From: an uncultured Clostridia bacterium
GTDB taxonomy: Bacteria > Bacillota > Clostridia > TANB77 > CAG-508
Assembly: GCA_944391575.1 (NCBI GenBank)
Contig: CALXUC010000010.1
Location: 1-49,007 of the forward strand
Direction of reading: 5' to 3'
Length of the DNA: 49,007 nucleotides
The notes beneath the pieces were generated by a model, which searched no databases, was not told the origin of the DNA, and was given only the letters and a program-made list of their open reading frames with translations. How positions within the stretch are numbered: position 1 is the stretch's first letter; every line of letters starts with the position of its first letter. The position numbers were made by a program, and so were the translations under genes. Below, piece after piece: positions 15,417 through 37,485 of this stretch.

Positions 15417-16401
15417 ATGTTTTTAAAAAAATTAAAAATTGGAAATGTAGAATTAGATAATAATATAATATTAGCGCCTATGGCAGGCGTAACAGACCGA
15501 CCTTTTAGGATAATTGCTAAAGAATATGGTGTAGGTTTAGTTGTAACAGAAATGATAAGTAGTAAAGCTATTTTTTATGATGATAAAAAAACAAAGAAAA
15601 TGCTAAATATGAAAGATGAAAAAAGACCTATTTCCGTTCAAATTTTTGGAAATGATTTAGATGCTATAAAAGTAGCTGTAGAGTATATTAATAATTTTGC
15701 AGATATTATTGATATAAATATGGGATGTCCTGCACCTAAAATTGTTAAAAACGGAGATGGTAGCGCACTTTTAAAAGATTTAACACTTGCAGAAAAAATT
15801 ATTAAAACAGCTGTTGAATATTCTAATGTGCCTATCACAGTAAAATTTAGAAAAGGATGGGATAATAAGAGTATAGTGGCTACAGAATTTGCAGAAATGG
15901 CAGAAAAAGCAGGTGCGAAAATGCTTACTATACACGGTAGAGCAAGAGAAGAATATTATTCACGGAAATGTGGATTTAGATATTATAAAAGATGTTAAAA
16001 AATCTGTTAATATCCCTGTTATCGGTAATGGCGATATAAAAACTGTAGAAGATGCTAAAAAAATGTTTGAATACACAAATGTAGATGGAATAATGATAGG
16101 TAGAGCTACTATAGGTAACCCATGGTTTATTAAAAATGTTATAGATTTTTTGAAAGATGAAGATACTTATATACAGCCAGAAATTTCAAACGAAGAAAAA
16201 CTTGCTGTGATTTTGAAGCATTTAAATCTATTAATAGAAGAAAAAGGTGAAATTGTGGCAGTAAAAGAAATGAGAAAACATATTGCTCATTATGTTAAAA
16301 ACATGCCTAATGCTACTTCTATTCGTGAAAAGGTAAATTCTATTGAAGATAGAGAGACTTTAGAAAAGACTTTAAGAAATAGTTTAATTACATTAAACTA
16401 A
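15417..16401 (+). pseudogene. dusB: tRNA-dihydrouridine synthase (DusB-like), frameshifted
   Basis: Two overlapping frames together make one full Dus protein of about 327 residues. Frame 1 (15417-15998) holds the FMN-binding start ILAPMAGVTDRPFR, the catalytic-Cys motif INMGCPAPKIVK and TIHGRAREEYYS. Frame 2 continues GNVDLDIIKDVKKSVNIPVIGNGDI and GIMIGRATIGNPW to 16401. Deleting one C near 15963 (TCA-C-GGA) joins them into the expected YYSGNVD. Dus enzymes reduce uridines in the tRNA D-loop. As written, the first frame would end at about 193 residues without the C-terminal tRNA-binding domain. A sequencing error is as likely as a true mutation; no slippery heptamer is obvious. Confidence 0.85.
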
Positions 16402-16499: not shown

Positions 16500-17256
16500 C
16501 TACCCGGTCTTTTTCATTATATCTTTCTTCATTTTTTCTATTATCTTTTTTTCAAGTCGTGATATGTAACTTTGCGATATACCGCAACATATCGGCGACT
16601 TCTTTTTGCGTTTTTTCTTTTTGATTTGTATTAATTCCAAATCTTAATTCCATCAAGTATTTTTCCCTACTACTTAATTTACTCATGGCAACTCTTAATA
16701 ACTTCAAATCGACTTCATCCTCTAATCTTCTCGATGTAACATCTGGCTCTGTCCCTAACAAGTCCGACAATAAAAGTTCGTTTCCATCGCCATCTTGATT
16801 AAGTGGCTCATCTATAGATACTTCTGTTTTTATTTTATTACTTTTTCTTAAAAACATTAATATTTCATTTTCTATACATCTCGAAGCATATGTAGCTAAT
16901 TTTATATTTTTACCAACATTAAATGTATTTATTGCCTTCATTAATCCTATCGTTCCAATAGATATTAAATCTTCGATACCAACGCCTGTATTTTCAAATT
17001 TTTTAGCAATATATACAACTAATCTTAAATTTCTTTCCACCAATATTTTTCTCTTTTCTTCGCATCCCGCTTCTATTTCCTCTAAAATTTTATTTTCTTC
17101 CTCTTGAGAAAGTGGTGGAGGCAATGTTTGCGCTCCAGCTATGTAAAAAATAGATGAATCTATTAATCTTAATTGGTACCTAACCTCGTCCTCTTCCTCA
17201 AAAAATTTTTTATGCAAATTCTTTAAAGTATTTTTTATAACTTCTAAAATATCCAT
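16500..17256 (-). pseudogene. sigE: Sporulation sigma factor SigE, frameshifted near its C-terminus
   Basis: Sigma-E, the early mother-cell sigma factor. The best start is the ATG at 17256 (after GGAGGAATGTGTT), giving a pro-sequence of about 25-30 residues to be removed by SpoIIGA. Region 2 is intact ([50 protein letters not shown]), as is the region 3/4 start ([14 protein letters not shown]). After EVADML the frame goes to YIAKLHITT and stops, but dropping the C opposite plus-strand G16584 restores [17 protein letters not shown] and continues to a stop at 16500. The lost part is region 4.2, which reads the -35, so the protein as written should not work. Sequencing error or genuine loss cannot be told apart here. 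Confidence 0.87.
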
Positions 17257-17338
17257 AACACATTCCTCCATTACATATAAATTATATTTACTCACAAAGC
17301 AAATTTATTTTTCTAATAAATCTGCACCTATAATTGCA

Positions 17339-18232
17339 TTATAAATACCGCTCTTTTGATAACTTTTTATTATACATACCTATTATTATATTTTCAATTT
17401 TTTCATGTTCATACTCACCATTTTCAATTACTTTCAAATAATCAGCTTTAATACCTAATAATAAACCGTTTTCTTTTCCCAAAGAATTAAAAGGAATCAC
17501 TCTAAACTTATTTAAAAATTTACTTATTTCCGCTCTCTTCTCTTCATCTTCTATATCATTTACATTTAAAACATCTGTATTACCTACAATAATGTTATCA
17601 ATATTTTTTAATATTTCGTCAGGCACTAATTGAAATAAATATGTAGTTTCAACAACTATTACTGGCACACCAGTAATAGGTTCTTTTAAAAAATTACCAC
17701 TATCTATTAATGCTTTTACAAGCCTTTTATTTCCCTCAATAGAAATTTCTACCTCACATATTTTTTTCTTTTTGCTATATCTATTTTTTATAATGCTATA
17801 AAATATAGATATTAAAATAAATCCTACTACACCACCAAATAAAACTATCTTTATCGGATATGTACCTATGTAAACGCCATTTTTCATTAATATGTTCTCT
17901 GGCTTTATAAAATATAGCAATGCTAATGCAACACCACCAAATGTAAATGATACTACGTAAAATACTAATACCGCTTTAAGTAAACTTTTAAAACTTTTTG
18001 TATCTGCTGAAATATACACTATAATTACAGATATTAAAATTTTCAAAAAAATAGTATTATATATTTCAAAAACTTTTGTAACACTTAAAACAGCATAAAT
18101 TGCCCCTATTAGGCTACCTAATAAAATTCTAATCGGCTTATTATTTAGTTTTAGTAATAATACTGTTGCATAAATTATTATATAATTCATACATATATTT
18201 TCTAAAAAAACAATATCTAAATATACAGTCAT
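17339..18232 (-). CDS. spoIIGA: Sigma-E processing peptidase SpoIIGA
   Basis: A 297-residue membrane-embedded aspartic protease that cleaves pro-sigma-E. Its N-terminal half has five hydrophobic helices (YLDIVFLENICMNYIIIYAT starts the first), and the C-terminal domain carries the catalytic loop ALIDSGNFLKEPITG, with the Asp-Ser-Gly triplet. sigE follows 82 bases downstream on the same strand, the conserved arrangement. There is no Shine-Dalgarno sequence directly before the ATG; instead a strong one lies upstream of a long hairpin (see 18233-18308). Compared with Bacillus, the spoIIGA-sigE pair faces ftsZ rather than following it. Confidence 0.92.
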   Translation of the reverse strand: MTVYLDIVFLENICMNYIIIYATVLLLKLNNKPIRILLGSLIGAIYAVLSVTKVFEIYNTIFLKILISVIIVYISADTKSFKSLLKAVLVFYVVSFTFGGVALALLYFIKPENILMKNGVYIGTYPIKIVLFGGVVGFILISIFYSIIKNRYSKKKKICEVEISIEGNKRLVKALIDSGNFLKEPITGVPVIVVETTYLFQLVPDEILKNIDNIIVGNTDVLNVNDIEDEEKRAEISKFLNKFRVIPFNSLGKENGLLLGIKADYLKVIENGEYEHEKIENIIIGMYNKKLSKERYL

Positions 18233-18308
18233 TTTTATTAAAATAAAAAAGTTTAAAGGGTATTAAAGGAGGTTACCAATTTAACTTTTTTATTTTTTCC
18301 TCCTTCCT
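18233..18308 (-). promoter_or_regulatory. spoIIGA leader: Shine-Dalgarno, hairpin with anti-SD loop, start codon
   Basis: On the minus strand GGAAGGAGG (18307-18299) is followed by a 14-bp stem (AAAATAAAAAAGTT with AACTTTTTTATTTT) plus further AAA/TTT and GGTA/TACC pairs. The apical loop contains CCTCCTTT, complementary to the Shine-Dalgarno sequence. The stem ends 9 bases before the ATG. Folded, it would bring the ribosome site to normal distance; unfolded, the loop could mask it. The U-run also makes it terminator-like. Confidence 0.6.
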
Positions 18309-18361
18309 CTTTACTATACCACTTTTCTATTTAAAAATTTGTCTCTTTTTAGGGGCGAAAA

Positions 18362-18395
18362 AAAGAAATAATCTAAATTTTTAGATTATTTCTTT
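18362..18395 (-). terminator. Terminator-like hairpin facing left
   Basis: AAAGAAATAATCTAAA pairs perfectly over 16 bp with its inverse (18362-18377 with 18380-18395). On the minus strand it runs straight into a T-run, so it should stop a leftward transcript. The only gene to its right (mazF) points the other way, which leaves the transcript it ends unexplained; alternatively it is a spoIIGA leader attenuator. Confidence 0.55.
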
Positions 18396-36349: not shown

Positions 36350-36380
36350 ATATATACAAAAATTTAAAAATAATATGGGA

Positions 36381-36408
36381 AAGGAGCGTATGATTTCAAG
36401 ATCATACG
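36381..36408 (+). promoter_or_regulatory. plsX leader: Shine-Dalgarno followed by a hairpin
   Basis: AAGGAG (36381-36386) is followed at once by CGTATGAT (36387-36394), which pairs perfectly with ATCATACG (36401-36408) around TTCAAG. Nine bases later comes the plsX ATG, which has no ribosome site of its own. Folded, the hairpin brings the two to normal distance. The stem also hides an ATG (36390) that would open a 20-codon frame (36390-36452) overlapping plsX. Confidence 0.65.
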
Positions 36409-36417
36409 GAATTTATT

Positions 36418-37485
36418 ATGAAAATTTTGTTAGATGCTATGGGTGGAGATAATGCACCAGAAGCAACAATAAAAGGTGCTGTAAGAGCTGCAAAAGAAAT
36501 TGAATCAGAAGTTATAATGATAGGACAAGAAAAAGTAATAATGGAAAAAATAAAAGAAATATATAATGTAGAGAAACTTTCAGATTTAGCGCCAAATTTG
36601 AAAATAAAAAATGCTACAGAAGTTATAGAAATGGAAGATATACCAACACAAGCAATTAAACATAAAAAAGATTCATCAATGGTAGTTGGATTTAATATGT
36701 TAAAAAATGGAGAAGGAGATGCTTTCGTATCAGCCGGAAATTCTGGAGCGTTACTAACAGGAGCGACTCTAATAGTAGGAAGGATAAAAGGTGTAGATAG
36801 ACCAGCGCTAGCGCCAATGTTACCTTCATATAAAAAAGGTTTAATGTTAATTGACGCAGGTTCAAATACTAATTGTAAACCATTAAATTTATTACAATTT
36901 GCACAAATGGCTAATATTTATTTAAAAAATGCACTTCATATTGAAAAGCCAGTAATAGGCTTATTAAATATAGGAACAGAAGAAAACAAGGGTAATGATT
37001 TAATGAAAGAATCATATAAACTTTTAAAAGAAAATGCAGAAGCTTCAGATATGAACTTTGTAGGAAATGTAGAAGGAAGAGAAGCTTTTTTGGGTAAAAT
37101 AGATGCTGTAGTAACAGATGGCTTTACTGGAAATATATTTTTAAAAACAATAGAAGGCTTTGGAAAACTAGTAAAATTAAGTTTAACAGAAAGTTTAAAG
37201 AAAAATATATTTAGCACTATAGCAGCAGTACCAGCGCTACCGGGTATTAAAAGATTTACTAAGACAATGGATTATAAACAATATGGAGGAGCGTTATTCT
37301 TAGGAGTAAAACAACCAGTAGTAAAAGCACATGGAAGCAGTGACGATTACTTATTTTACACAACTATAAAACAAGCAGAAAACTTCGCTAAAAATGGTGC
37401 CGTAGAAATGATGAAAAAAGAATTTGAAAAATTAAGAACAAAAACTGCAGAAACAGAAAAAATAACAAATACAGAAAGGAGATAA
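36418..37485 (+). CDS. plsX: Phosphate acyltransferase PlsX
   Basis: A 355-residue enzyme that makes acyl-phosphate from acyl-ACP, the first committed step of phospholipid synthesis in Firmicutes. The start [20 protein letters not shown], the middle [19 protein letters not shown] and [18 protein letters not shown] mark the family at full length. The start codon is fixed by the conserved N-terminus, although no Shine-Dalgarno sequence is adjacent (see the hairpin upstream). In many Firmicutes plsX sits with fapR, fabD and acpP; here rplI and dnaB follow instead, three bases after its stop. No FapR operator is recognisable. Confidence 0.96.

Follow-up and report, generated by a model that had tools for sequence, protein, structure and literature searches.

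A candidate hairpin-bridged translation start at spoIIGA in an uncultured Clostridia bacterium

The leader of spoIIGA in an uncultured Clostridia bacterium carries a strong Shine-Dalgarno (SD) sequence far from the start codon, and a predicted hairpin fills the gap between them. Hairpin-bridged (split) translation initiation, like that of phage T4 genes 38 and 25, is the best explanation of this arrangement, and we give it a probability of roughly 0.6. At the level of sequence, bridging is well supported by the anatomy of the leader, by a comparison of 95 orthologous leaders, and by further genes that have the same layout, in one instance with conservation between genera. Throughout, “the window” means the whole stretch of DNA that was analysed, 49,007 nucleotides of contig CALXUC010000010.1.

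Results

The spoIIGA locus

The original prediction, made from the sequence alone, had named the gene spoIIGA, and the profile match given below establishes that identity. The start codon (ATG, 18232-18230, minus strand) is set by an N-terminus that is conserved in relatives. The features of the locus and of its promoter are as follows.

17339..18232, minus strand: spoIIGA, sigma-E processing peptidase (TIGR02854, 218 bits, E 1.4e-64; frame check)
16552..17295, minus strand: sigE, 3' of spoIIGA, frame shifted near its 3' end (NF006158 / TIGR02835)
18313..18318, minus strand: -10 box TATAGT of the spoIIGA promoter (conserved position and spacing)
18340..18344, minus strand: -35-like AGACA of the spoIIGA promoter (conserved geometry)
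18362..18395, minus strand: terminator-like palindrome, 5' of the spoIIGA promoter (kept together with the promoter in relatives)

Frame shifts are present in spoIIGA (17339-17400), sigE (~16552-16620) and dus (~15890-16000); those in spoIIGA and sigE both lie close to the conserved 3' ends. They suggest indel errors in the assembly. Such errors would not, however, produce a palindrome.

In at least some relatives, the terminator-like palindrome is found directly 3' of ftsZ. In the window, spoIIGA-sigE and ftsZ are on opposite strands. A MazF/PemK-like gene (PF02452; 18633-19010, plus strand) is divergent to spoIIGA, and an HD-domain gene (PF13487; 19073-20065, minus strand) comes after it.

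Anatomy of the spoIIGA leader

Between the promoter and the start codon, the leader consists of the following elements.

18299..18307, minus strand: strong SD GGAAGGAGG, with which the mRNA is predicted to begin (pairing with the 16S tail, -11.9 kcal/mol)
18283..18296, minus strand: 5' arm of the stem, AAAAUAAAAAAGUU (folding)
18263..18273, minus strand: apical loop ACCUCCUUUAA, 11 nt, holding the anti-SD CCUCCUUU at 18272-18265 (folding; match to the SD)
18240..18253, minus strand: 3' arm of the stem, AACUUUUUUAUUUU (folding)
18233..18239, minus strand: spacer AAUAAAA, 7 nt, from the stem to the ATG (sequence)

The gap between SD and ATG is 66 nt long (18298-18233), close to the 68 or so first reported. 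No nearer SD precedes spoIIGA: the best score in the final 22 nt is +2.1 kcal/mol, as compared with -11.9 kcal/mol for the distal site, and this contrast is the strongest of its sort among 259 genes. The gap is predicted to fold into a stem of 14 consecutive pairs, of which one is G-C, followed by 2 + 4 more pairs above small internal loops. Once folded, this hairpin of 57 nt leaves 2 + 7 = 9 nt from SD to AUG. By a similar measure, the normal strong SDs of the same genome have a median distance of 6 nt and a 5-95% range of 2.8-10 nt. The original prediction of a strong but distant SD, with no other site present and a stem of 14 or more base pairs that leaves about 10 nt, was therefore accurate on all of these points.

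The 66-nt spacer has a folding energy of -13.8 kcal/mol, against -5.0 +/- 2.0 kcal/mol when shuffled, and not one of 3000 dinucleotide shuffles was as low. Stems of at least 14 bp appear in 0.5% of the spacer shuffles and in 0.9% of the genome's intergenic 66-mers. The whole 111-nt region is of ordinary stability (z = -0.25), but this score says little for so AT-rich a sequence, and the figures above therefore refer to the spacer.

No Rfam model matched the window at gathering scores, and no known riboswitch or RNA thermometer family was found in it by this means. We rejected the possibility that the hairpin belongs to a recognisable repeat family, given that a search for copies in its own genome and in 390 family genomes returned merely short AT-rich matches. 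A leader ORF between the SD and spoIIGA was likewise rejected: no ATG, GTG or TTG lies 5-13 nt from the SD, the first being a TTG at 19 nt.

Promoter geometry and the leaders of relatives

In 80 of the 95 spoIIGA leaders of the family, the window's among them, the motif [TAG]GACA occurs exactly 21 nt before TANNNT; shuffled leaders give an expectation of 1.08. The 21-nt spacing agrees with the long spacer of the B. subtilis spoIIG promoter, which depends on Spo0A and sigma-A. From this geometry, the spoIIGA transcript is predicted to start at about 18307-18305, 6-8 nt past the -10 box, and therefore the SD would be the extreme 5' end of the mRNA. A start downstream of the hairpin, which had been named as a finding that would speak against bridging, is improbable with so conserved a promoter.

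The distance from the -10 box to the ATG is mostly 16-49 nt in 79 relatives. In the window it is 80 nt, or 23 nt without the hairpin. Since the latter value is a usual one, the SD is in its ancestral place and the hairpin occupies the gap between SD and AUG. The hairpin looks as though it had been inserted there. Among the 95 family leaders, the combination of a distal SD and a hairpin was found in the window only, and nearly all of the others have an SD that adjoins the start codon. The closest spoIIGA found, that of locus L022, reads TATAAT-AATAAAGAGG-TTATAT-ATG. The window's genus is represented in the collection by one genome, and the spoIIGA hairpin was seen in that genome alone. The comparison of relatives that had been recommended as a check thus places the SD where the ancestor had it relative to the promoter, but recovers the hairpin in none of the 94 other leaders. 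Phylum-wide spoIIGA loci, whose orientation was unreliable, were left out of this evidence.

Two further kinds of leader were seen among the relatives. In four (L057, L080, L081 and L089), just 6-9 nt separate the -10 box from the ATG, and these spoIIGA mRNAs are probably leaderless. Three (L009, L029 and L047) have palindromic insertions, tens of nt in length, between the promoter and the SD.

Other genes with the same layout

We scanned 0.9 Mb of the same genome, in stretches that contain 739 ORFs, for the order SD-stem-AUG without an SD at any nearby start. Five matches were obtained, and four were kept: spoIIGA, plsX, L214:15158 and L162:1489. The fifth, L217:8059, was rejected as a bridged gene; comparison with an orthologue reveals the stretch as coding sequence, with the start farther upstream. 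The plsX gene is also in the window; neither this second case nor the predicted 5'-terminal position of the SD in the spoIIGA transcript had figured in the original prediction.

36378..36386, plus strand: plsX SD GGAAAGGAG, immediately 5' of the hairpin (sequence)
36387..36408, plus strand: plsX hairpin in the SD-to-ATG gap, 22 nt, 9 bp, loop of 4 (folding; relatives)
36418..37485, plus strand: plsX (PF02504, E 1.5e-95)

The plsX start thus has the order SD, CGTATGATTTCAAGATCATACG, GAATTTATT, ATG at 36418. In 29 relatives, plsX has no hairpin and its SD adjoins the start codon.

At L214:15158, a dockerin-domain gene (PF00404), an SD is followed by an 11-bp hairpin and the ATG (L214:15113-15160). 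This hairpin is kept in another genus, g7 (genome G006; L284, G006:C17, ~19.8 kb). When the leader GAAAGGGGGATAGATATTAGTTTTATAAACTAATATTAAATATG is compared with its G006 counterpart GAGGGGGGGAAATATTAGTTTAAAAACTAATATATAGAATATG, the SD, both arms and the ATG are retained, and the loop and tail differ. Genome G006 has two more SD-hairpin-AUG starts, L315:13392 (plus strand) and L303:1326 (minus strand), the orthologues of which in G040, G002 and G026 have adjacent SDs. A third match in G006, L316:1465, is a candidate by the scan alone.

Bridging stems of at least 9 bp number 4 in the sample from the window's own genome, as compared with 0.76 expected from shuffled spacers and a maximum of 3 in 300 shuffles; for stems of at least 11 bp, the figures are 2 observed and 0.08 expected. 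Against this enrichment, one of the four cases, L162:1489, is an orphan ORF of 101 aa with no homologue in 58 family genomes. Among 896 ORFs of sampled relatives (the G006 stretches excluded), there were no bridging stems of at least 8 bp. The resulting contrast, 4/739 vs 0/896, is modest (Fisher p = 0.04) and, as the comparison was made after the first cases had been seen, indicative only. Genome G006 was chosen for sampling on account of the common dockerin case, and its own excess of bridging stems at the threshold of at least 9 bp is not significant. Hairpins located just 5' of the SD have a frequency of 10.3% here vs 10.8-14.2% in relatives; they are no commoner in this genome, which is therefore not simply palindrome-rich. 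The recurrence of the SD-hairpin-AUG order, elsewhere in this genome and in the related genus, suggests that bacteria, too, use the device known from phage T4.

Discussion

If translation of spoIIGA is bridged, the mRNA would begin at the strong SD or within 2-3 nt of it, and the 57 nt that come shortly after would fold into the hairpin and so reduce the SD-AUG distance to 9 nt. Both elements could then be bound by a single 30S subunit while the hairpin juts out between them. In the window's lineage, the hairpin would have arisen as a palindrome that was inserted, or that grew, between an ordinary SD and its start codon, and it may have been tolerated since, by folding, it removes itself as an obstacle. 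Four points are inferred: exactly where the transcript starts, that the hairpin folds in the cell, that ribosomes initiate across it, and how it arose. Two properties of the hairpin speak against bridging: the stem is nearly all A-U, and the rod that separates SD from AUG, at 20 bp, exceeds the known T4 cases.

T4 genes 38 and 25 are established cases of initiation across a hairpin: the distance goes from 22 to 5 nt in the former and from 27 to 11 nt in the latter, and mutations that weaken the stem lower initiation (PMC3014915). The layout of gene 25 is limited to close T-even phages (PMC3014915). As at spoIIGA, a strong SD in these genes is too distant, and a hairpin in the gap gives a workable distance. 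However, the T4 examples are short hairpins in phage genes that have been tested experimentally, whereas spoIIGA, a bacterial developmental gene, is known here from its nucleotide sequence, with a 57-nt hairpin that takes 66 to 9 nt. Also unlike T4, the mRNA is predicted to have the SD at its 5' extremity, the loop holds an anti-SD, and the layout is seen at several genes of one genome. The E. coli thrS leader resembles that of spoIIGA in that RNA structure splits the ribosome binding site; as described, it has several large structured standby modules, whereas a single hairpin parts SD from AUG at spoIIGA (PMC3936740). A literature search found no report of a hairpin or of bridging in a spoIIGA leader; most subscription papers were beyond its reach, and earlier descriptions may exist.

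The hairpin might have nothing to do with initiation. It has the A-tract/U-tract form of an attenuator or intrinsic terminator, the second finding that had been named as adverse to bridging, and the palindromic insertions in the leaders of L009, L029 and L047 make a neutral insertion conceivable; translation would in either case be weak and independent of the SD. SD-less initiation at spoIIGA is possible, given the four relatives with leaderless-like mRNAs. However, the stem before the U-run amounts to just -4.1 kcal/mol and the hairpin is absent from the terminator-like sites of our scan, while a neutral palindrome would have had to land exactly between SD and AUG with the spacing preserved, and to do likewise at other genes. 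We regard this account as highly unlikely. For a distant, 5'-terminal SD, the most serious alternative is a STAB-SD, which would hold 30S subunits against a 5' exonuclease while the AUG is used without an SD. The element of this name in the cry3A mRNA is, like that of spoIIGA, an SD-like sequence near the 5' end and far from the start codon; it affords protection from RNase J1, does not direct initiation, and has no bridging hairpin described (PMC4113751). Promoter geometry indeed predicts that the spoIIGA SD is at the 5' end of its mRNA. In relatives, however, the SD at the same promoter-relative place adjoins the AUG and would serve translation. A STAB-SD also leaves unexplained why a stem fills the gap and restores the spacing, and why plsX and the dockerin genes have the same layout. 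We judge it no likelier than a terminator or neutral insertion.

Another possibility, raised in the original prediction, is that the leader is a two-state switch. The loop sequence CCUCCUUU can, as had been claimed, pair with the SD, forming 8 bp (one of them G-U) at -9.6 kcal/mol. In one fold (B) the loop would lie on the SD and initiation would be shut; in the other (A) the bridging hairpin would form and initiation would be open; a ligand, a protein, the ribosome or temperature would tip the balance. A Watson-Crick match of at least 7 nt to the SD arises in the spacer in 1.1% of shuffles, and just 1 of the genome's 681 leaders has one. (A test that allows G-U pairs is too lax, an 8-nt complement then being common, at 10-35%; Watson-Crick matches were used instead.) In a nested model, the complete folds A and B are mutually exclusive. 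While the nascent RNA is 43-64 nt long, it folds best by pairing SD with anti-SD; that pairing is displaced once the 3' arm emerges at 68 nt. On the other hand, fold A is better than fold B by ~4 kcal/mol; the SD is predicted to be ~92% unpaired at 37 C, and this figure varies little between 25 and 50 C. The leader shares an anti-SD with SD/anti-SD riboswitches and thermosensors, but differs from them in a predicted ground state that leaves the SD free and in the lack of an Rfam match in the window. Moreover, the other bridged genes are without such a loop, the anti-SD is kept in no relative, and no effector is known. Thus, the anti-SD is present and rare, but its proposed role as a switch is weakly supported. 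The folding model makes a switch possible; it is not needed to explain the leader, and we think it rather unlikely.

Bridged initiation could also be part of something broader: a recurrent, tolerated and sometimes conserved habit of an AT-rich Clostridia lineage, arising from palindromes that repeatedly grew between SD and AUG, in which the anti-SD loop of spoIIGA adds co-transcriptional two-state control of the sigma-E-activating protease. We consider this combination decidedly unlikely.

What is distinctive at spoIIGA is the size of the hairpin, its occurrence in a bacterial developmental gene, and the recurrence of the layout within one lineage. If the bridging reading is true, the ribosome accommodates much larger inserts in the SD-AUG gap than the T4 genes showed. 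To gene finders and expression models, a distant SD commonly counts for nothing; should initiation across hairpins be routine in some bacteria, genes that are scored as lacking an SD are mis-scored. The spoIIGA leader would also constitute a point of post-transcriptional control, amenable to testing, over entry into the sigma-E stage of sporulation.
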